Part shown: positions 27,070 to 60,772 of the stretch, piece after piece
Numbering within the stretch: position 1 is the first letter of the stretch
Layout of the letters: the number at the start of each line of letters is the position of its first letter
Assembly: GCA_949361645.1 (NCBI GenBank)
Contig: OX442415.1
Span: 8,587,254-8,651,253, forward strand
Direction of reading: 5' to 3'
DNA: 64,000 nt
From: Spongilla lacustris
Lineage: Eukaryota > Porifera > Demospongiae > Spongillida > Spongillidae
Program-made: the position numbers and the translations under genes
The notes under the pieces: model-generated
What the model was told of the DNA's origin: nothing
Databases searched by the model: none
Seen by the model: the letters and a program-made list of their open reading frames with translations, nothing else

Positions 27070-27534
27070 ATGGAGGGAGGGAGGGAGGGAGGGAGGGAGG
27101 GAGGGAGGGAGGGAGGGAGGGAGGGAGGGAGGGAGGGAGGGAGGGAGGGAGGGAGGGAGGGAGGGAGGGAGGGAGGGAGGGAGGGAGGGAGGGAGGGAGG
27201 GAGGGAGGGAGGGAGGGAGGGAGGGAGGGAGGGAGGGAGGGAGGGAGGGAGGGAGGGAGGGAGGGAGGGAGGGAGGGAGGGAGGGAGGGAGGGAGGGAGG
27301 GAGGGAGGGAGGGAGGGAGGGAGGGAGGGAGGGAGGGAGGGAGGGAGGGAGGGAGGGAGGGAGGGAGGGAGGGAGGGAGGGAGGGAGGGAGGGAGGGAGG
27401 GAGGGAGGGAGGGAGGGAGGGAGGGAGGGAGGGAGGGAGGGAGGGAGGGAGGGAGGGAGGGAGGGAGGGAGGGAGGGAGGGAGGGAGGGAGGGAGGGAGG
27501 GAGGGAGGGAGGGAGGGAAGGAGGGAGGGTATTG
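27070..27534 (+). repeat. (GGGA)n microsatellite, about 465 bp
   Basis: More than 110 nearly perfect GGGA units with one interruption (AAGG) near 27519. In the transcript of the PI3K gene this is a (CCCT)n tract ending at the acceptor of the RBD exon. The long GGRE and PSLP reading frames are artefacts. Confidence 0.97.
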
Positions 27535-31225: not shown

Positions 31226-31821
31226 CACCCCTTAGAGGCTTCTGTTGTAGAGATATTATTGTGACTTTTTCCTTGGACAATGTTTGGTGCACTGTATTTG
31301 GTGATACATATTCCTATTGTTTGAAAGCATTGAATTAGACGGGAAATAAGCTCCCGCCTAAATATGGCTCGGAAAGCATGGTAACAAGTGGGATGGTACA
31401 TTGGCGGGGTTGTACTTGGTTATTGGTGGGGGCAGCTGTAAGTAAGCGGCACTTGACAGCACTGGTAAAAGCAGTTGCTGGAGACTGTTGTTCAGTCTAA
31501 GCATTCGTGCACAGCATAACCTACAAGCACCAGAAATTTTTTATGTGCATTTGTTATTCTCTGTTTGTTGCCAAAGGGTAGCATTGTGTGTGTCCTATTA
31601 CAAGAGCAGATTCCTTGACCGATGACAGATGACCCCTGGGCACAGAGAAGGCTGCAGCTCTTGGACTGTTTGAAGAATATGTTCGATGTTGTATGTGGCT
31701 GGGCAGTGCTAGTTAGAGGTTTCTTCCCCAATGTATGGTTGATATTTCCTATTAGAGGTTTTTCCACTGGGGCTTTTCCATAAGGAGATGCGGGCGCATC
31801 TCCTTTACAATATAGGTGTAT

Positions 31822-32440
31822 GTTGAGCCCCCTGCCCAGCCTTGTGTGTTGAGCCCCCTGCCCAGCCTTGTGTGTTGAGCCCCCTGCCCAGTCTTGTGTG
31901 TTGAGCCCCCTGCCCAGCCTTGTGTGTTGAGCCCCCTGCCCAGTCTTGTGTGTTGAGCCCCCGGCCCAGCCTTGTGTGTTGAGCCCCCTGCCCAGCCTTG
32001 TGTGTTGAGCCCCCTGCCCAGCCTTGTGTGTTGAGCCCCCTGCCCAGCCTTGTGTGTTGAGCCCCCTGCCCAGTCTTGTGTGTTGAGCCCCCTGCCCAGT
32101 CTTGTGTGTTGAGCCCCCTGCCCAGCCTTGTGTGTTGAGCCCCCTGCCCAGCCTTGTGTGTTGAGCCCCCTGCCCAGTCTTGTGTGTTGAGCCCCCTGCC
32201 CAGCCTTGTGTGCTGAGCCCCCTGCCCAGCCTTGTGTGTTGAGCCACCTGCCTAGCCTTGTGTGTTGAGCCCCCTGCCCAGCCTTGTGTGTTGAGCCACC
32301 TGCCCAGCCTTGAGTGTTGAGCCCCCTGCCCAGCCTTGTGTGTTGAGCCACCTGCCTAGCCTTGTGTGTTGAGCCCCCTGCCCAGCCTTGTGTGTTGAGC
32401 CACCTGCCCAGCCTTGAGTGTTGAGCCCCCTGCCCAGCCA
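31822..32440 (-). repeat. 26-bp minisatellite (GAGCCCCCTGCCCAGCCTTG)
   Basis: About 24 units of TTGAGCCCCCTGCCCAGCCT-TGTGTG with few variants. Frames on the minus strand stay open because 26-base units lack stops in all three registers. Confidence 0.95.
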
Positions 32441-32964
32441 TGTGTGTTGTGTGATAATGTATTGTTTTTGTTGTACATGTATGTGATGGTGTGGAGGTGT
32501 ATATGTGGATTTTAGTGGTGGATTGTGGGTGTTGTGCTGAATTGTGGTTGTTGTGGTTGATGTTGGTCCATGTACATGTATCTATCAGGTGGTATTATTA
32601 AGTTGACTTGCACAGGAGATGCTGCACCAACTGTCATGTGATCGTGGAATGGGGGCACGTACCATGCATGGCGTGCACATGCTTCTATATAATTAGTGAC
32701 CTACAGTGGAAATCGTGGTACTTGATCCTAAAATTTTTCTTGATGTGAATTTGATTCACTTGAATGTTTTTTGATTGATATAAACTGAAATAAAAATCTG
32801 ACAACGCACGTTTGTTACATAGTTGTTTGCCAATTAGCATTCATAAATACTACACATCACGTGACGTTTTGGTTTCACTACGACCTTGGAAAGTAAACAA
32901 ATTACCATTTATAGATTTAGGTGAATTTCTCTCTCGTTTGGTTATGAATTATTACGAATCGTGG

Positions 32965-32974
32965 TATATATAAA
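32965..32974 (+). promoter_or_regulatory. TATA box, left terminal repeat
   Basis: TATATATAAA, about 275 bases upstream of the transposase Met. The identical motif is present in the right repeat. Confidence 0.6.
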
Positions 32975-33198
32975 GAGTGGCCGTTTCCCCATCGTTTGCT
33001 CGAGGTGGATTTTTAGTCCGGTAAAAGGAAACGGTGTTTTCGATACAGACGCCATATTTTATACTGTTTTGTGTTAGGTCAGCCATTTCGCTATGCGCGA
33101 TTTCTATGTCTCAGAAATTTACAAGACAATAGTACGATCAGTACTTTATCGTAGGAGATCTTTCATACCGTGCCAATGCGCAGTGTATCGCTAACAAA

Positions 33199-33231
33199 AT
33201 GTCTTCAAAGAAATCTGGCTTAAAAACGTAG
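33199..33231 (+). promoter_or_regulatory. Short upstream reading frame in transposase leader
   Basis: ATG followed by nine codons and a stop, ending 9 bases before the transposase Met. Such a frame usually lowers translation of the next one. The right repeat has the mirrored sequence. Confidence 0.45.
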
Positions 33232-33240
33232 CCATTTGCA

Positions 33241-35148
33241 ATGAATGACATTAAAATAGTTACGTTATTTATGTTATCTTCTAGTTATTCGATTATGGCT
33301 GAGGGCGTTGGTTGTGTTGTTGACAGCGAAAACGGTTCTTTTCAGAACCAAATCACTCGTCGCTTGCCGAGAAGGGCTAGTCAAGCAGCAATATCAGCTT
33401 GGAAACCTCTTTGTGCAAGGAAATCTCCAAGAGGAGACCCGCGAGCTGGGGTAGCAAAACGGTCCATACTGCGAGCCAGCAAGTTTATGCGAATGAGCAT
33501 GACGAAGAGAAGGACTGCAGCTTCTATCGCGGAAAGTGCCATGAAAGAGTTGCAGTCTCTAGCCGAATTTATGCCTAATCTTGCTGATACGGATGCAAGA
33601 ACACTTGCCTTGCGGTTGTACTACTTAGAATTGGCGGATGGCATATCTCCCGTTCGTGCTCGGAACAAAGTTAGCCAAATGTTTTTAGTGAGTGCAGCTA
33701 CAGTGAAGAGATGGTCTGCATCGTGGGAAGCTACAGGAGAAGATGCATTGTTGGATCACCGAAGTGTACAGGATGAAAGAGATCCATCCCTACTTTTTGC
33801 TAGTCCAGCCCTTGTATTTGAGCTAAAAAACTGGATTAAAAAAAGGCTCAAACAAGGAGGCAAACATAAAGATGGTTATTTGACAATTCAACAATTGCAG
33901 AATTACATCAATGATGTTCTTTTCAACGATCCAGAGGTTGTGTCACCTGAATTACTGGATCTTCATGAAGCCAGATACCACTCTCGTCAGGTATCACGAA
34001 TGACTGTTCTAAGATGGATACACAAGCTGGGCTATAAGTGGTCTGATTCATCAAGGGCTCCTTTTTGTGATCGACACGAAGACCAGGATGTTATTGCCTA
34101 TCGTAATGAATGGGTAAAGAAAATGTTGTCTTTACAGTCACGTCTGCCAATTTTAAGCGAGGTAACTGGGAAACCTGAATGGTCTAACCTCCCTACAGGT
34201 GAAAAACCTCTTCTACATGGCAATCATGATGAGTGCATTTTGTATGCAAATGAAGGGAACCGGTTTGCTTGGGTAAGCAGTGATGCTTACCATATGAAGC
34301 CAAAAGGAGATGGAGCTACTATTATGGTAAGCGGTGTCTCAGTTTCATGTCATGGCTGGTTGGGACTAGAAACCATTGAGCCAAAAAGTGATGGAACATG
34401 GAACCATGAACATGTAATGAATAATCTTACAAAAGTAATTGATCAGTTTGAACTTTTGTATCCGGGATGCCAGTTACTGCTAACTTATGATAATGCTCCT
34501 TCTCACACTGCTGTACGAAAAGGGTCACTATCTACTGCTCGGATGAACAAGACTGATGGAGGCAAACAACCCATACTTACACAAATGGGATGGTTTGAAA
34601 CATTTGATTTGGCCACTAACTCAATGGCGAAAGTTTTGCAACAAATGTGGTATCCAGGGGAAGATGGAACACCCATTGCCAAAGGTGCATTAAAAATATG
34701 TAAAGAGAGAGGTTTAAAAGGGATTGACAAAATGAGGCTTGATGAACTCAGGGCACTGCTAGCATCCCAACCTGATTTTGCAAGTGTTAAGCCAGAGATT
34801 CAAGAAGAGGCAGAGCGTCGTGGACACATTCTACTGTTTGGCCCTAAATGCCACCCCGAGTGCATGCATGTGGAAATGTGCTGGGCATATGTCAAACAAT
34901 ATTGCAGACAGCATTGTGGACAAAGTATAACTACTCTGCGAACCACCCTTCAACATGCTTTATCAGAACAGCACCTGACTGTGAAGCAACATACTGCATT
35001 CTCACAACATGCTTGGAAGTGGATTGAGGCTTACTCAAATGAAGCAGATGGTGTCGTAGTGTATGAAACAATGAAAGCTCTCAAAAAAACACATAGGCAT
35101 CACCGCAAGGGAGTATATACAACTGTCCCTTTACCATCAAGCCAATAA
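33241..35148 (+). CDS. DDE transposase, Tc1/IS630-related, 635 aa
   Basis: Full-length frame without breaks. A basic N-terminal region (residues 37-92) precedes a helix-turn-helix (about 120-165, with VSQMFLVSAATVKRWSASWE). A second helical DNA-binding segment (about 190-265) ends TVLRWIHKLGYKW. The catalytic core has D330 in NHDECILYANEGNRFAW, D417 in LLLTYDNAPSH and E545 in CHPECMHVEMCWAYVK, a DDE set. Between D417 and E545 is an insert with a LeuArg-rich SAP-like helix pair (485-512). The IMVSGVSV and DGTWNHEHV segments are typical of the fungal and animal IS630-type family with HDE and FDN/YDN motifs. The Met at 33241 is chosen because it opens the conserved frame in both terminal repeats. 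Likely still active or recently active. Confidence 0.9.
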   Translation: MNDIKIVTLFMLSSSYSIMAEGVGCVVDSENGSFQNQITRRLPRRASQAAISAWKPLCARKSPRGDPRAGVAKRSILRASKFMRMSMTKRRTAASIAESAMKELQSLAEFMPNLADTDARTLALRLYYLELADGISPVRARNKVSQMFLVSAATVKRWSASWEATGEDALLDHRSVQDERDPSLLFASPALVFELKNWIKKRLKQGGKHKDGYLTIQQLQNYINDVLFNDPEVVSPELLDLHEARYHSRQVSRMTVLRWIHKLGYKWSDSSRAPFCDRHEDQDVIAYRNEWVKKMLSLQSRLPILSEVTGKPEWSNLPTGEKPLLHGNHDECILYANEGNRFAWVSSDAYHMKPKGDGATIMVSGVSVSCHGWLGLETIEPKSDGTWNHEHVMNNLTKVIDQFELLYPGCQLLLTYDNAPSHTAVRKGSLSTARMNKTDGGKQPILTQMGWFETFDLATNSMAKVLQQMWYPGEDGTPIAKGALKICKERGLKGIDKMRLDELRALLASQPDFASVKPEIQEEAERRGHILLFGPKCHPECMHVEMCWAYVKQYCRQHCGQSITTLRTTLQHALSEQHLTVKQHTAFSQHAWKWIEAYSNEADGVVVYETMKALKKTHRHHRKGVYTTVPLPSSQ

Positions 35149-35238
35149 CAACTATTTTTACAAGTTAATCATCGACATTCATCTCTGTATTGTAAATGTA
35201 TACAAGTATTTTGTATTTATATTTAAAACTTGTATTCT

Positions 35239-35766
35239 TCATGTCTTGTTATCAAATAGAGCATGTTCGCCGTTAGCTTCCCACACTGCAGACCATCTCT
35301 TCACTGTAACTGCACTCACAAAAAACATTTGGCTAACTTTGTTCCGAGCACGAACGGGAGATACGCCATCCGCCAATTCTATGTAGTACAAACGTAAGGC
35401 AAGTGTTCTTACATCCGTATCAGCAAGATTAGGCATAAAATCAGCTAGAGACTTTAACTCTTTCATGGCACTTTCCGCGATAGAAGCTGCAGTCCTTCTC
35501 TTCGTCATGCTCATTCGCATAAACTTGCTGGCTCGCAGTATGGACCGTTTTGCTACCCCAGCTCGCGGGTCTCCTCTTGGAGATTTCCTTGCACAAAGTG
35601 GTTTCCAAGCTGATATTGCTGCTTGACTAGCCCTTCTCGGCAAGCGACGAGTGATTTGGTTCTGAAAAGAACCGTTTTCGCTGTCAACAACACAACCAAC
35701 GCCCTCAGCCATAATCGAATAACTAAAAGATAACATAAATAACGTAACTATTTTAATGTCATTCAT
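35239..35766 (-). CDS. Stand-alone transposase N-terminal domain, 175 aa
   Basis: Encoded by the right terminal repeat in the opposite direction, starting from the mirrored Met. It covers transposase residues 1 to about 172 with roughly ten substitutions (S14F, Q104K, A119V, L129I and others, mostly mild). It ends at a stop right after the first helix-turn-helix. It has the basic region and DNA-binding helices but no catalytic residue. It has the same TATA box and leader as the full transposase. An inhibitor that occupies the element's ends is a reasonable inference; a passive by-product of long repeats is the alternative. Confidence 0.7.
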   Translation of the reverse strand: MNDIKIVTLFMLSFSYSIMAEGVGCVVDSENGSFQNQITRRLPRRASQAAISAWKPLCARKSPRGDPRAGVAKRSILRASKFMRMSMTKRRTAASIAESAMKELKSLADFMPNLADTDVRTLALRLYYIELADGVSPVRARNKVSQMFFVSAVTVKRWSAVWEANGEHALFDNKT

Positions 35767-36032
35767 TGCAAATGGCTACGTTTTTAAGCCAGATTTCTTT
35801 GAAGACATTTTGTTAGCGATACACTGCGCATTGGCACGGCATGAAAGATCTCCTACGATAAAGTACTGATCGTACTACTCTCTTGTACATTTCTGGGACA
35901 TAGAAATCGCGCATAGCGAAATGGCTGACCTAACACAAAACAGTATAAAATATGGCGTCTGTATCGAAAACACCGTTTCCTTTTACCGGACTAAAAATCC
36001 AACTCGAGCAAACGATGGGGAAATGACCACTC

Positions 36033-36042
36033 TTTATATATA
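36033..36042 (-). promoter_or_regulatory. TATA box, right terminal repeat
   Basis: Mirror of 32965-32974, about 275 bases upstream of the 175-residue frame. Confidence 0.6.
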
Positions 36043-36475
36043 CCACGATTCGTAACAATTCATAACCAAACGAGAGAGAAATTCACCTAAATCTATAAAT
36101 GGTAATTTGTTTACTTTCCAAGGTCGTAGTGAAACCAAAACGTCACGTGATGTGTAGTATTTATGAATGCTAATTGGCAAACAACTATGTAACAAACGTG
36201 CGTTGTCAGATTTTTATTTTAGTTTATATCAATCAAAAAACATTCAAGTGAATCAAATTCACATCAAGAAAAATTTTAGGATCAAGTATCACGATTTCCA
36301 CTGTATTCCTTGGACACTGTTTGGTGCACTGTATTTGGTGTAAAAAGCTCCTTCATGAAGGTATTATGAGGGATGTTTAAATTGTCTGTGGTGAAATAAT
36401 TATTGCCTTTTATAATAATTAGATCCTAATTGAACTGCCATACCATTTTGTACTGTAAAATGTTTCCAAATAGTC

Positions 36476-43797: not shown

Positions 43798-45364
43798 CTA
43801 AAGAGTAGATGAGACTTGTGCAACCTTTGTAATCAGGTCTACAGGGGAGTGGTTAAAGGCATGGCCTATTGATTTGATCGAGCTCCTCTGATGCACATGA
43901 TGGAAAAGATGACATCCAGTCTTCAACTGTGTGTGCATGCCATTCCCCAGATCACATGATAACCGCTCCATCAACCCTTCCATTTGAGGATGATAACAAT
44001 CGACCCTTAGGTTTGTCAGAATCTCTCTCGGGACCCCAACTCTGGTGAACAACGGGATCAGTTCCTCTGCCACATGTTCCACATCTATTGACTTCAATAC
44101 CACAGCCTCTGGGTACCTTGTCACATAGTCACTAGGACATACTTGTTTCCTGACCTCCTGCTCATAAGAGGTCCAACAATGTCCATCGCAATCCTCCAGC
44201 CAAAACCAGCAACACCAATTGCTCAATCCCCAGGCCTTCTCCTTCCACATGGGGTTGCCAATGCTGATATAGCACCCCACTCTCTACATAGAACCACATG
44301 TTCCCCTTCATGCACTCTCCTTTTGCTGCTTTCCACAATGGCTACAAAGTAGGGTCTTCCCGCTGCAATCTCCGGATCCCTTCCACATTGAACAACTTCT
44401 CCCCCTCTCCATCGAGGTGCTTTGGCTTCTCCGGAACCTTCAAGCCTTCCTTAGCTGCACTCTGCTATCCATTGCAACGTCACTATCCACCTGTTCCACC
44501 ACAGGGGTAAGGCCTTTGCCCCACTCTGCCTCTCTACGTGCATCTTCTTCCATCCACTTCTTTGCCTCAGCCCACGTAGTCATTGCCATCACCAAACTCT
44601 TCTTGGTACCTTGAACCATCGGGCCAATCTTCACCAGCTCCGGTACATCTCTTCCCAACAGCACTGATATTGGAAGCTTTTTAACAGCTGCTGCCTCCAA
44701 CCAGTAGTGCTCCTCGTCCACGGCTAACGGATAGGGTACTCTATGCCCGTGTACCCAACACCATCACGTTCCTTCCCAACAGTCTCTTCCTGGGTACCAG
44801 ACATGATCACACCAGCATTCTCCCCAAACCCGTGTCCAACACCATATGGGAGACATTCATACCCTCTACCTTTGCGCTCCTCACAGGAACCAAGGTATCT
44901 CCACTTTCTGCCTCTTACTTCTGACTATTCCTAACTCCCTCGACTGGGACACTTACTGGAGATATGACCAATCTGATGGCATAAATAACACCTTGGACCC
45001 CTACCGAGGCTTCTCTGCTATGGCCTCCTTAGTACAAGTGTATCTCTCTGGGGTTTATCACTCTCCTGCAAAGTTTCAACTTCGTTGACACACTGCCTCT
45101 GCTTCAATGGGCCTCCTTCCTTACGTCAAGCCTGTTTGTACGTATCCAGCATCTTGCTCATCTTCACAATACCATCCACCTTATATTCATGCAGCCACTT
45201 TTTTGGTAAGCTTCCTTGACTAAATCAAACATCCGTCCGCCCTCCTTGGACTCAGCATCCTGGCACCTTTTCATCAGGTCACACTCTTTAGACTCTTCCT
45301 TCTCTTCCAGGTCAGCTTTGCTCCATGGCAATGCAAACCAGACATGCAATTTAATTATGCCCAT
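43798..45364 (-). pseudogene. Decayed Gypsy-like retroelement, copy 1
   Basis: Reading towards lower coordinates there are pieces of gag-like sequence (ADLEEKEESKECDLMKR), a protease segment with MVLDTG, and LPISVLLGRDVPELV. Then come an integrase zinc-binding-like stretch (LQREDP...) and integrase core pieces (DYVTRYPEAVVLKS, YHPQMEGLMERL). Frames are broken many times and the reverse transcriptase is missing. An LTR retrotransposon remnant in an NLR intron; three copies share the breaks, so decay preceded the duplication. Confidence 0.7.
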
Positions 45365-48258: not shown

Positions 48259-49825
48259 CTAAAGAGTAGATGAGACTTGTGCAACCTTTGTAATCAGGTC
48301 TACAGGGGAGTGGTTAAAGGCATGGCCTATTGATTTGATCGAGCTCCTCTGATGCACATGATGGAAAAGATGACATCCAGTCTTCAACTGTGTGTGCATG
48401 CCATTCCCCAGATCACATGATAACCGCTCCATCAACCCTTCCATTTGAGGATGATAACAATCGACCCTTAGGTTTGTCAGAATCTCTCTCTGGACCCCAA
48501 CTCTGGTGAACAACGGGATCAGTTCCTCTGCCACATGTTCCACATCTATTGACTTCAATACCACAGCCTCTGGGTACCTTGTTACATAGTCACTAGGACA
48601 TACTTGTTTCCTGACCTCCTGCTCATAAGAGGTCCAACAATGTCCATCGCAATCCTCCAGCCAAAACCAGCAACACCAATTGCTCAATCCCCAGGCCTTC
48701 TCCTTCCACATGGGGTTGCCAATGCTGATATAGCACCCCACTCTCTACATAGAACCACATGTTCCCCTTCATGCACTCTCCTTTTGCTGCTTTCCACAAT
48801 GGCTACAAAGTAGGGTCTTCCCGCTGCAATCTCCGGATCCCTTCCACATTGAACAACTTCTCCCCCTCTCCATCGAGGTGCTTTGGCTTCTCCGGAACCT
48901 TCAAGCCTTCCTTAGCTGCACTCTGCTATCCATTGCAACGTCACTATCCACCTGTTCCACCACAGGGGTAAGGCCTTTGCCCCACTCTGCCTCTCTACGT
49001 GCATCTTCTTCCATCCACTTCTTTGCCTCAGCCCACGTAGTCATTGCCATCACCAAACTCTTCTTGGTACCTTGAACCATCGGGCCAATCTTCACCAGCT
49101 CCGGTACATCTCTTCCCAACAGCACTGATATTGGAAGCTTTTTAACAGCTGCTGCCTCCAACCAGTAGTGCTCCTCGTCCACGGCTAACGGATAGGGTAC
49201 TCTATGCCCGTGTACCCAACATCATCACGTTCCTTCCCAACAGTCTCTTCCTGGGTACCAGACATGATCACACCAGCATTCTCCCCAAACCCGTGTCCAA
49301 CACCATATGGGAGACATTCATACCCTCTACCTTTGCGCTCCTCACAGGAACCAAGGTATCTCCACTTTCTGCCTCTTACTTCTGACTATTCCTAACTCCC
49401 TCGACTGGGACACTTACTGGAGATATGACCAATCTGATGGCATAAATAACACCTTGGACCCCTACCGAGGCTTCTCTGCTATGGCCTCCTTAGTACAAGT
49501 GTATCTCTCTGGGGTTTATCACTCTCCTGCAAAGTTTCAACTTCGTTGACACACTGCCTCTGCTTCAATGGGCCTCCTTCCTTACGTCAAGCCTGTTTGT
49601 ACGTATCCAGCATCTTGCTCATCTTCACAATACCATCCACCTTATATTCATGCAGCCACTTTTTTGGTAAGCTTCCTTGACTAAATCAAACATCCGTCCG
49701 CCCTCCTTGGACTCAGCATCCTGGCACCTTTTCATCAGGTCACACTCTTTAGACTCTTCCTTCTCTTCCAGGTCAGCTTTGCTCCATGGCAATGCAAACC
49801 AGACATGCAATTTAATTATGCCCAT
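48259..49825 (-). pseudogene. Decayed Gypsy-like retroelement, copy 2
   Basis: Near-identical to copy 1 (43798-45364), with the same frame breaks. Confidence 0.7.
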
Positions 49826-55241: not shown

Positions 55242-55741
55242 CTGTAAACAGTGGGATCAAAACATGTCTATGTTCACACCAGTCACCACCACCTGCACAC
55301 TACTGGATCAGTACACATGTAGATAAATGACATGGATACCCGATTCTTGAAATAACTGGCCACTTCAAATCAAGACTTGTAGCACCAAAATGTATTTATG
55401 TTATACCATATCCACTTGTACTACTGGTAGTATGTACATGTGTACATTGTGTACATGTGCATAATACTGTACAGTACGTCAAGTAAGACCCCCCTCCCCC
55501 CCAAAATAAAATGGCTCGTGTTACAATGAGCATATTGTTGTGATCTTGAGCTCTGCTGCGCGCCGTTCATCAAAACCTTGTTAGAGCACATTTCTTTACA
55601 CAACGTTGAAGCTAGCGTTAATGGTTATGACGATAAGCTCATTTAAACATGATCCTTTTTGGTGGGTGCATATGGGGGAGGGGGGGGGCTTACTTGACGT
55701 ACTATGCACTGTAGAACACATCCACTGACAGGCAAGCTCAC

Positions 55742-56507
55742 AATTACTTGGAATGGTACATGTTCTCTTGGGTCTCTTGGCAGATGGAGACTTCACTGGC
55801 TTCTGCTCATGACGCTTCAGTACAGTCTTGACCAACAATTGGTACACTTCTGTGTGAGTTTGAGGAGGTTGGCTTTTGTTCTTCATCTGGTCTCTGAATA
55901 CCTGTACAACAATGGCACAGTTAAGGGGAACATACATTAAGCCATTGATGTGAGGATGATGTTCAAGATAGGACTTCAGCTGGTCCCTTAACTCCTTGTT
56001 GTGTTCAAGGGCACCATCAACATATCGCTGGATCTCTTCCTTACCAAAACCAATCACCTCAATGTACTGACATTTCATTGAGTGACACAGCTGATGGAGG
56101 TTTTGGTTAGCTGAAGGTCGGGTTGACACCAACACTGTCATCTTAGGAAGCACCTCCCCTCTGATGATGTCAGCAAAGATGGATGATGTCTGCAGATGGG
56201 AAGACAGCTCATCATAGCCATCAAGAACCATCATCACACCATCTCCATCTTGTGACCTTATCCAATCTACAACAGCCTCATGTTCTTGGGGTGCCTGTCC
56301 TTTATAACGAAAAAGGTCAGATATGTCCTTGGCATTCTGCACGCTCTCATCCCTCAAGCGTAGGAGGACAACAAGATGGTAGCCATGAAGGATCTCCTTT
56401 TGGGACCAGCAGACCCCAAAGTGCCAGCTGAATGTTGATTTCCCTATACCAGGAATCCCTTCCACTATGATGCAGCTAGCCCTCTCACCATCCCGTAACA
56501 AGCCAAC
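55742..56507 (-). CDS. NLR gene, NACHT exon
   Basis: A 766-base exon with a GATTTCCAG acceptor and AATT|GTGAGC donor (phase 0 in, 1 out). It encodes the NACHT NTPase that drives receptor oligomerisation. Walker A is EGIPGIGKSTFSWHF. LHGYHLVVLLRLRDESV follows as the next strand, Walker B is VMMVLDGYDELSS, and sensor 1 is MTVLVSTRPSA. IEVIGFGKEEIQRYVDG and LMYVPLNCAIVVQVFRD are the GxP-type end motifs. All key residues are present, so the receptor is likely functional. Confidence 0.92.
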
Positions 56508-57564: not shown

Positions 57565-60500
57565 ATGATTATAGATCTACATGTAGATATGAAATGTTAT
57601 CTATACCGGAAATCTATTACTCCTTCACCCGGTTCTTTAGTTGCCCATCATTTTGATAGTCCAAACCAGCTACATGTATCAGCATTAATCCCAGAGCCTA
57701 AATCACCTGGACAGGGTCCTTCCTTTCCTTCAGGCTCCCACTTCACCCTTAATGAATTCCAGTTCCAACAATCCTTGGCCCCTTCCTCCCAGTGTGGGTC
57801 ACAATCTCCAACTTGTTGCAAGTGCTACACCTCAGGTGCTCGTTGCACATCTTGTAAGTGTTGTCGAGAGGGGCACCCATGTGTGAACTGTTACCCGGGA
57901 AGAAGTGGGAAATGTGCTAACGTTGTTCTCTCAAGCACTGTCATCCTACCTGCATCTATACCACAATTAGAGACTGTTCTCCAACCCAATAGCTTGAATT
58001 CTCTTTCCAACAATCAGGGACAAGATTTACAGCCATCTATGCCTTGGACACCCTCACCTCAGAGTCCACTGTCTCTCACAGAAGAACAGGATTACAATGT
58101 CACTAGGCCACTCTCTCTCAACACCCCCTGTAACTCTGCAATGACTCCACACACATCTTTTCCATCATTGTTTGCTCCACTACCATGCCTTAGCAATGGC
58201 CATTCCAGTCCAGACTCTTCTATTTTGGAATTAACAGCTAATGATCCACTGCCAACACAGTCACATGTACGTGATGTACTACTTGAGCAGAGTGAAGTCC
58301 CGTCCTCTAGCCAACACCCCCATAAGAAATCCTGTCCAGTCCAAGGCTGCCAACAACTCATTGCTCCCACCATGTGGCGTCAACATATGACCTTACATGC
58401 TCAAGGTTTCTTCTCTGGTGCAGTACCTGGCTCTTGGCTTCAAGAACAAGATCTTTTCGTTTGTCCCAATTGTCAGCAGCTGGTGGCTAATTCACGCCAT
58501 TCTTCTCATCTTCGCAAATGCACACATGCCAATGCTGCACCTCCTAGTCTGTCCCCTCTCGGTGTCCAAGTAGCTGATCCTTCTCTTTTCCCCCTACCCA
58601 CATTTGAATCTGTGTGTAATCTATCAGGCCGCACAGTTCGGCACATCCCTTTGAAGGACAGACTTTCATTTGCTCTTGCTTTGTCTTCTGCCTTGAGGTC
58701 TGCTGTGCATGACAACTCTGAGGATGCTTGGCTGACGTTGTTAATGCTGCCTAAATGTGTTGCTTATCTCGGGCAAGGTTCCTGTACATGTGGCTAGGTT
58801 CCTTGCAGGGGGCAACCTAGTGGCTCTGGAGAATAACAAACCCAACTGCCCCCCCCGACATCCGGCCTATTGCAGTTGGAGAGGCTATTCGGTGTCTGGT
58901 TGGGAAATGCCTATGCTCCACTTCCTCGCTCCTTTTCAACTTGGGGTAGCTTGTCAAGGGGGTGCAGAAAAGATTATTCATGGCCTCAGAAGCTGTGTGG
59001 ACGAACATTGGCAGGAGGTTGATTTTGCAGTATTGAAGATAGATTTGCTCAATGCATTTAATCGGGTATCAAGGCAGGCCATCCTGAATGCTTGTGCCCT
59101 TCACATCCCAGAGCTGCTCCCATGGTCTCAATGGTGCTATGGACAACATCCCGCTTTGTGGCACTCTTTGGGTACTATTTCATCAGAAATAGGTGTACAA
59201 CAAGGCGATCCCCTAGGTCCCCTTCTTTTTTGTCTTGTATTGCAACAGATAATATCAGCAATTGCGGAGGATGTTGACTGTGAATCGCTATTGTTTCACC
59301 ACTGGTATATTGATGATGGTGTTGTTGCAGAGCCTGTTGCAGCCATTACTCGGGTTCTCGCCATCATCCAAGAACGAGGACCACCACTCGGCCTCAATAT
59401 CAACATCGCCAAATGTGAGGTGTTCAGTTTGAGGGATCTAAGTTCTTTCCCAGAGGAGATGAGGCGATCGAATGTGCATCACTTTGAGATCCTAGGGGCT
59501 CCCATAGGGGATTTAGTGTTCTGCGCAAAATTTGTAGCGCAGAAACAGTCAGAGGCTTCCAAATTGCTAAAGGAGTTAGAAGCTGTGGGTTCTATCGACC
59601 CCCAGGTGGCCCTACTTCTTCTCAGGCAATGTGGGAGCTATTGCAGACTAGTTCACTTAGCTAGGAACACTCCACCTCTCCTAGTCAATGAGGCCTTTGC
59701 CTTGTTTGATGATGGTGTGCAGCAATGCTTTTCGAAATGCACTGCAGTGGATGCTTCCGCTGCCACCTGGCAACAGGCTCAACTTAGCTTGAAAAGAGGG
59801 GGTTTAGGGCTTCGGAGCTTAAGTTTCCACTCTCCTGCAGCTTACATTGCTTCATTTTTGTCCTCAGGCCTTTCTCCATCATCAGGTACATGTAGGTATT
59901 TATCCTCGTCATTGCACCTTTACAACAGTTTAGTAGATCCCCAAGATTCTCTCACCCCTGAGTCTATAGGTGATTCTCCTCTTTCACGGAAGGTTCAGTC
60001 TTCCAAGATAGAAGAACAACAGTTCAATAATCTTTTTCACAATGCATCTGTGACTGACAGGGCTCGTCTTTTGTCCATCTCTTCCCCTCATGCCTCTGCT
60101 TGGCTGTCAGTCACTCCCTCCCCACAACTCAACCTCCACTTGGAGCCTGCTGAGTTTCAAGTAGCACTTAAGTGGTGATTGGGTATTCCAGTGGTCCAAG
60201 GCCAAAGTTGCCCTCACTGTCCTTCCTGTGTGTTGGATGACTTTGGCCATCACTCCCTCACTTGCAAACATGGAGGGGATGTGGTTTCGCGACACAATAA
60301 GCTCAGGGATGTGTTTTATGACTTCTGCCAACGTGCTTGCTTGGGTCCACGTCTGGAAATGGGTTGTGGGGCGGGATCTGATTCTCAATCCCGCCCAGCA
60401 GATGTTCTTGTTCCTAACTGGGACCTTGGCAAGCCGGCTGCATTTGACTTGTCCGTCACGTCTACGCTACAATCAAGTGTTCTGCTAGAAGCGAGCGTGA

Positions 60501-60772
60501 CGGCTGGTTCGGCAGCCCTGTTGGTTGAGAACAGAAAACACAACAGCAGCGACAAAAAGTGTGATGAATTGGGGTGGGCTTGTATCCCACTTGTTGTTGA
60601 GACCTACGGGTGTTGGGGGGCTGAAGCAGTGGCAGCATTATCAAAGCGTGCAGGTCGTCTCTCCATCAGGAATAATGAACTAAAGTCCAAGACCATTTTT
60701 AGCCTGTACAGCCGCCTAGGGTTGACATTAGTAAGGGCGAACTGTAGAGCTATCCTATCTAGGTTAACATGA
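57565..60772 (+). pseudogene. Broken RT element: CXC, zinc fingers, RT, nuclease
   Basis: A large non-LTR-type reverse-transcriptase gene. The first frame (57565-58797) has a Cys-rich CXC block (residues 84-118, CKCYTSGARCTSCKC...C..C) and zinc fingers at 257-278 and 300-321. The RT frame (58757-60178) has DLLNAFNR (96-103), GVQQGDPLGPLL (146-157) and a YIDDG active site (184-188). The end (60179-60772) has a C..C...H....C zinc knuckle with RHNKLRD, then RPADVLVPNW and FDLSVT, a restriction-like nuclease. Breaks are a missing stretch and frame change near 58790, shifts near 58850 and 58920, and an in-frame TGA at 60176. The RT family occurs in corals and sponges; its clade is uncertain. Confidence 0.8.

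Follow-up and report, generated by a model that had tools for sequence, protein, structure and literature searches.

A sponge transposon family whose two terminal repeats both encode the first domain of the transposase, possibly as a brake on transposition

Why would a transposon carry the beginning of its transposase gene twice? The question is raised by a 64,000-nucleotide stretch of the Spongilla lacustris genome (assembly GCA_949361645.1, contig OX442415.1, positions 8,587,254 to 8,651,253; hereafter the window), which contains a 3,600-bp DNA transposon at 32704-36303 that begins with CAGTGG and ends with CCACTG. A sequence-only reading of the window had described inverted repeats of about 1 kb holding a TATA-like stretch, the leader, the start codon and some 170 codons of the transposase, and this was confirmed to the base: an inverted-repeat search delimited two arms at 32702-33759 and 35248-36305, flanking TA included (1,058 nt each, 97% complementary, 1,488 nt apart, with a gapless alignment over 1,046 of the 1,058 nt), each composed of a 537-bp leader and the first ~173 transposase codons. 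The separate protein of 175 residues that the same reading had assigned to the right repeat, with the first helix-turn-helix and without any DDE residue, was likewise recovered as an open reading frame (ORF; Table 1). We tentatively regard the element, with something short of even confidence, as belonging to an IS630/Tc1/mariner-like family whose terminal repeat codes for a first-domain regulator that likely represses jumping. This view starts from what was observed here, namely the architecture itself, its retention by 11 of the 12 elements whose transposase is intact, a copied stretch that stops at a near-constant point, the concerted evolution of the arms and the right-arm clades of several subfamilies.

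The transposase matched the NCBIfam IS630 profile NF033545 (E 5.4e-14) with 52.3 bits against a cut-off of 100; in Pfam it had four weak helix-turn-helix hits, none of which reached the cut-off. A structure model and its fold matches (search against pdb_via) placed the first predicted helix-turn-helix at about residues 116-171. The catalytic triad was assigned from sequence as D330, D417 and E545, of which D330 and D417 were nearly invariant across 15 aligned rows and E545 had no place among the listed invariant positions. The right-arm protein was 91% identical to transposase residues 1-175 and carried a right-specific EANGEHALFDNKT tail. This short protein had no match in Pfam, and a PDB sequence search returned a single, meaningless match (E 0.67). 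Relatives outside the S. lacustris genome were compared as proteins; a near-identical counterpart of the right-arm protein (P0019) was found in another record, and the relatives whose records name an organism were from Ephydatia muelleri.

The 248.6-Mb genome searched (G000, with the window on contig C1) contained at least 12 elements with an unbroken full-length transposase (no stops and at least 604 of 635 residues aligned), a lower bound because 69 of 766 first-look candidates were scored. They represent six subfamilies (L009/L010; L012/L013/L014; L015; L016/L017/L018; L019/L020; L023). In 11 of the 12 the right arm was complete and its frame open over 149-184 codons; the exception, L012, has an intact transposase and a right arm from which the outer part has been lost. 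TA was found on both sides of 11 of the 12, L012 being without a right end, and CAGTG formed the end letters of the elements read. Among the 26 loci read for arms (L009-L034), 16 had arm pairs of 1,009-1,149 nt with 89.9-99.9% identity, while the remaining ten had shorter, split or no arm pairs and, in nine cases, a broken or absent transposase, L012 being the tenth. The sequence-only reading had allowed that short terminal inverted repeats (TIRs) or mostly broken right frames in other copies would make the duplication an accident of this one; neither was the case among the elements with an unbroken transposase, the duplication is a standing architecture, and that reading's interpretation is in part supported. 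The duplicated stretch stopped at codons 165-175 of the window transposase in 16 of 18 elements and at codons 157 and 188 in the other two, a point predicted to lie in the linker that follows the first helix-turn-helix. In a check on six decayed elements (L055-L060), whose right sides were fetched, first-domain sequence was broken in L057 and frame-shifted in L060, L055 retained only a junction-end remnant, and L056, L058 and L059 had no right-arm first-domain sequence; because the end motif was absent from all six right sides, we read these as truncated or decayed elements and not as short-TIR copies. For six of eight subfamily pairs, differences at fourfold sites in arm codons were 0.55-0.79 (0.35 for L013-L015 and 0.04 for L019-L020), and this strong divergence between most subfamilies indicates that the duplicated-arm layout is old.

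Smaller relatives were also encountered. Shorter arm pairs occurred in copies without an intact transposase, namely L028 (777 nt, with an inner deletion) and L034 (654 nt), the latter a 1.6-kb palindromic relative (G000:C13:4058600-4060400). A small second element with the same end type (TACAGTGG) lies beside the transposon at L012:5897-7651, with 763-nt arms that are 89% identical and a broken first-domain frame. Several L034-like open matches of 120-123 aa were seen at other places and possibly form a small non-autonomous family. The idea that small copies are brake-only elements was discarded, since the first-domain frame survives in L033 and L034 only as short or broken fragments.

In a tree of 55 arm sequences (nine of 64, from L012, L014, L017 and L018, were dropped as near-copies), the left and right arms of one subfamily grouped together, with long branches between subfamilies, a pattern that implies concerted evolution. 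Direct traces of gene conversion between arms were found in L011, whose transposase is broken, where two identical 4-bp insertions are present in both arms and the right arm switches from left-type to right-type sequence near codon 150, and in L020, which differs from L019 by a 4-codon deletion carried in both arms. Differences between the two arms of the window element were unevenly spread: 12 lie in the 591 nt before the MAEG start codon and one in the 240 nt after it, whereas the 231 nt that lead up to the right-arm stop contain 27, of which the final 51 nt account for 16. In L016-L018, arm differences numbered 0-1 in the leader of 581 bp versus 34 in the coding stretch up to the right-arm stop. 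Homogenisation is thus strongest in the outer arm, and right arms retain their own sequence toward the junction. The position-0 indels of L009 and L018 in this comparison are an artefact of end placement. Right arms formed a clade in the window subfamily (Shimodaira-Hasegawa-like approximate likelihood ratio test, SH-aLRT, 99; six rows, one assigned by sequence only), in the L023 group (95) and in L021/L037 (96), L032/L048 (86) and L016/L031 (85), and in none of the other subfamilies. An EANG.HALFDNKT-like right tail was found in six loci, and P0025, from another record, stops at the same codon as this tail type. The L019-type tail, ESNHRF, has counterparts in P0035 (EANHFTK) and P0036 (EANHFTE), and P0036 was 65% identical to the L019 right protein.

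Conversion is also the core of the strongest rival explanation, in which the arms are long since the terminal repeat includes the promoter and the start codon, and the right frame is a passenger kept open by arm-to-arm conversion with no function of its own; in a variant, the danger of a broken right arm being copied into the transposase gene holds it open. We consider this explanation possible, if doubtful. Concerted evolution and the conversion traces are compatible with it, as are the shared insertions of L011 beside a broken transposase and a right-side substitution ratio near 0.7-1.0 (see below). It leaves unexplained why 16 of 18 elements have a copy that extends to almost the same codon, though its inner part could erode harmlessly for promoter and ends, and why right-specific tails persist by the junction, beyond the reach of conversion. 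The observed conversion would equally suit a right arm that acts as a spare part, serving as the template on which a damaged promoter or N-terminal domain is repaired. This we judge very unlikely: conversion has also spread damage, as in L011, and full identity would be expected of a template, yet right arms retain their own junction sequence.

The sequence-only reading had asked whether right-arm frames in other copies stay open and show a ratio of nonsynonymous to synonymous rates (dN/dS) below 1; the first held in 11 of the 12 elements with an unbroken transposase, and the second is not clear. Substitutions were counted in eight families with both arms, four of which (the L021, L032, L025 and L030 groups) have a broken transposase. 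Over all eight, the left-right dN/dS-like ratio was 0.66 (96 nonsynonymous codons, 50 synonymous changes); in the four informative families whose transposase is intact it was 0.48 (37 and 27). A left-right count without outgroup, which gave 0.25-0.45 in intact elements differing between arms and 1.2 in L025, was replaced by a polarised majority count, less favourable to selection, for which four-family sums were pooled in this analysis. Left-side changes then amounted to 26 nonsynonymous and 14 synonymous over eight families (per-site ratio 0.64) and to 10 and 7 over four (0.50), with 29 nonsynonymous and 22 synonymous changes over eight families remaining without polarity. One frame break was seen in the four informative right arms where 3.4-10.3 were expected (P 0.0004 with the higher rate), and arm indels measured 9, 6 and 3 nt in the coding part versus 1 and 16 nt in the leader of L015, and 6 and 6 nt versus 3, 8 and 1 nt in L025.

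A number of observations speak against a functional right frame. The right-side polarised counts were 41 nonsynonymous and 14 synonymous changes over eight families (ratio 1.0) and 17 and 9 over the four intact families (0.66), with no clear purifying selection, and the frame-break test with the lower rate gave P 0.15. Over all fetched arms, mostly from decaying copies, the frame was open in 18 of 33 right and 18 of 27 left arms (P 0.43). The arm indels of L023 (2, 3 and 5 nt in the coding part versus 11, 1 and 1 in the leader) break the multiple-of-three pattern, and a 2-nt insertion in the helix-turn-helix region takes its right frame, which is open, out of register with the homologous one. 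Across the whole arm tree the right label was unclustered, with 18 changes versus 18.7 on average after shuffling. Left-to-right conversion would by itself be able to hold the right frame open, and a single helix-turn-helix may be weak at binding. The dN/dS-type counts therefore neither confirm nor refute a function of the right frame, the evidence being mixed; counted toward selection, besides the frame-break test with the higher rate and the indels of L015 and L025, are the retention of the frame to nearly one point across near-saturated divergence and the freedom of silent sites in the duplicated codons.

Fourfold and silent sites of the duplicated codons were no more conserved than those in the rest of the transposase gene, which argues against a role of the coding part of the arms as DNA in cis, that is, as a binding site for the transposase or host factors. 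This is the least probable of the readings weighed here, although the long TIRs of Galileo have been reported to contain several transposase-binding sites (PMC3688188, in the excerpts available); nor did the end motif recur consistently inside the leader, to which that scan was confined, the codons lying outside it. The claim that the ends could not be bound without covering the promoter was not supported: the TATA-like box lies ~261 bp inside, where a TATATATAAA stretch stands inward from each end of the window element, and an inner copy of the end motif was inconsistent across arms. The candidate second binding site at the TATA-like box was rejected, as 8 of 200 shuffles were as good in the window subfamily and the best match lay elsewhere in the seven other arms, with 2 of 200 shuffles as good in L016 (other strand, position 459) and 26-184 of 200 in the remaining six of the eight. 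L009 and L010 each had a TATA-like motif in both arms, 261 bp from the end, and other subfamilies had a weaker A/T-rich stretch at the aligned position. Two leader blocks were similar between subfamilies in both arms, one similar to TTTGGCCGAGTC..TTTTAA.CCGGTAAA about 290-330 bp from the end and one resembling GCCATTT..ATGAAT..CATT directly before the start codon; they may be signals of the start site and leader.

The two convergent stop codons are separated by 44-90 bp in seven of eight elements, L023 having a 103-bp overlap, and no consistent poly(A) signal for both genes was detected, AATAAA or ATTAAA occurring in two of eight elements on the transposase strand and in three of eight on the other. 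Such a convergent layout, with no consistent poly(A) signal in the inter-stop stretch, would fit antisense control, in which the right arm acts as an inward promoter and its transcript, antisense to the transposase gene, gives rise to double-stranded RNA. We hold this to be improbable, because the leader alone (~540-640 bp) would suffice and 500 further coding bases would be unneeded. Antisense control, the spare part and the cis-DNA role are all less likely than a brake or a passenger frame.

Table 1 Features of the transposon, with positions in the window
Feature	Position	Strand	Basis
Left flanking TA, target-site duplication	32702..32703	.	sequence
Left terminal arm, leader with TATA-like box and transposase codons 1-173	32704..33759	+	inverted-repeat search, alignment; homologous arms in 16 elements
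TATA-like box of left arm, predicted promoter	32963..32973	+	sequence
Transposase ORF, 635 aa, IS630-like	33241..35148	+	ORF; IS630 profile below cut-off; model and fold matches
Spacer, 90 bp, between the two convergent stop codons	35149..35238	.	sequence
Right-arm ORF, 175 aa, limited to the N-terminal part of the transposase with the first helix-turn-helix, without catalytic residues	35239..35766	-	ORF; relatives
Right terminal arm, inverted copy of left arm	35248..36303	-	inverted-repeat search, alignment
Right flanking TA, target-site duplication	36304..36305	.	sequence

For a first-domain brake to work, both arms would be transcribed inward, and the short protein would be translated, bind DNA and inhibit. 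The same inward promoter would drive the transposase from the left arm and the first-domain protein from the right, and the latter would compete for the ends, sit on leader DNA or pair with the transposase, so that jumping is reduced. Because both genes begin in copies of one arm, transposase and brake would share promoter and leader, and we propose that their levels would consequently rise together with copy number. Gene conversion would keep the brake matched to the end-recognition domain of the transposase as that domain changes, and the junction-adjacent stretch, escaping conversion, would allow the brake to drift into a protein of its own. More hesitantly still, the whole family may be viewed as a two-gene self-limiting circuit with the terminal repeat as brake gene, its specificity matched by conversion and its junction end free to evolve a lineage of its own; each end would comprise a promoter and the first DNA-binding domain; on the left the frame would go on to the full transposase, on the right it would stop within the linker between domains. 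If true, the brake would be hard to lose without losing part of an end, and self-restraint would be inherited with every full copy. The family is also natural material for the study of gene conversion between long inverted arms, with left- and right-specific sites marking the tracts.

To our knowledge, known transposase-derived repressors arise by splicing, frameshifting or chance-deleted copies. MuDR of maize has two convergent genes, mudrA and mudrB, expressed from promoters in its terminal repeats; these are different genes, whereas in the otherwise similar convergent pair described here the second gene is a copy of the 5' part of the first. A terminal repeat containing a copy of the transposase start was not found reported in the open-licence PMC papers covered by the literature searches. 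Sailor (DD82E), of the IS630-Tc1-mariner group, shares an apparently IS630-like transposase with the window family and, according to the available parts of PMC8533490, is present in Porifera, includes one fungal element with 1,362-bp TIRs, spans DD78E-DD111E, has a predominantly TATA target site and has TIRs that usually start with GT or CC. Those parts make no mention of a coding duplication in the TIR, and identity with Sailor was ruled out by the spacing of 127 residues between the second D and the E of the inferred triad (78-111 in Sailor), the TA target site and the CAGTGG ends; the window family may be a neighbour of Sailor within that group. In the P element, the KP and 66-kDa repressors are truncated transposase products with the N-terminal DNA-binding domain, for which repression has been shown (PMC7776569, in part); they stem from small, internally deleted, non-autonomous copies or from splicing, whereas here the putative repressor has a frame of its own, in the right arm of elements whose transposase is intact. 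InsA of IS1 corresponds to the DNA-binding portion of the transposase; it binds the two ends and acts as repressor of the promoter that overlaps one of them (PMC12428005, in part). InsA and the IS1 transposase are products of one gene, InsA being made without the frameshift, whereas the putative repressor of this eukaryotic element is encoded by a second, convergent gene copy on the other strand. Galileo and other long-TIR elements have recruited inner element sequence into their TIRs, as here, and the recruited stretch of Galileo, unlike that of the present family, varies irregularly from copy to copy and falls outside the segment that codes for the transposase (PMC3573991, in the sections available). 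The Tc1/mariner-related Tec elements of ciliates are alike in having ~700-bp TIRs and one ORF on the other strand, which the accessible text does not describe as a copy of the transposase start (PMC7325037). As far as these partial sources go, the brake principle is known from IS1 InsA and the P-element repressors, and the difference lies in a brake gene within the terminal repeat of an intact element.

Elsewhere in the window, a 26-bp tandem repeat (24 copies, 31817-32449) stops ~250 bp to the left of the transposon, and a perfect-looking GGAG microsatellite of 114 units (27072-27529) is open in several frames. From their motifs, we take the C-terminal part of a 484-aa frame (26-1480) to be hAT-transposase-like, a 301-aa frame with GIPGIGKST (55596-56501) to be NACHT-like, and neighbouring frames at 57565-60772, one with YIDDG, to be presumably reverse transcriptase element-like. 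Two near-identical 160-aa frames (43798-44280 and 48259-48741), 4,461 bp apart and with matching tandem arrays around them, represent a tandem duplication of ~4.5 kb.

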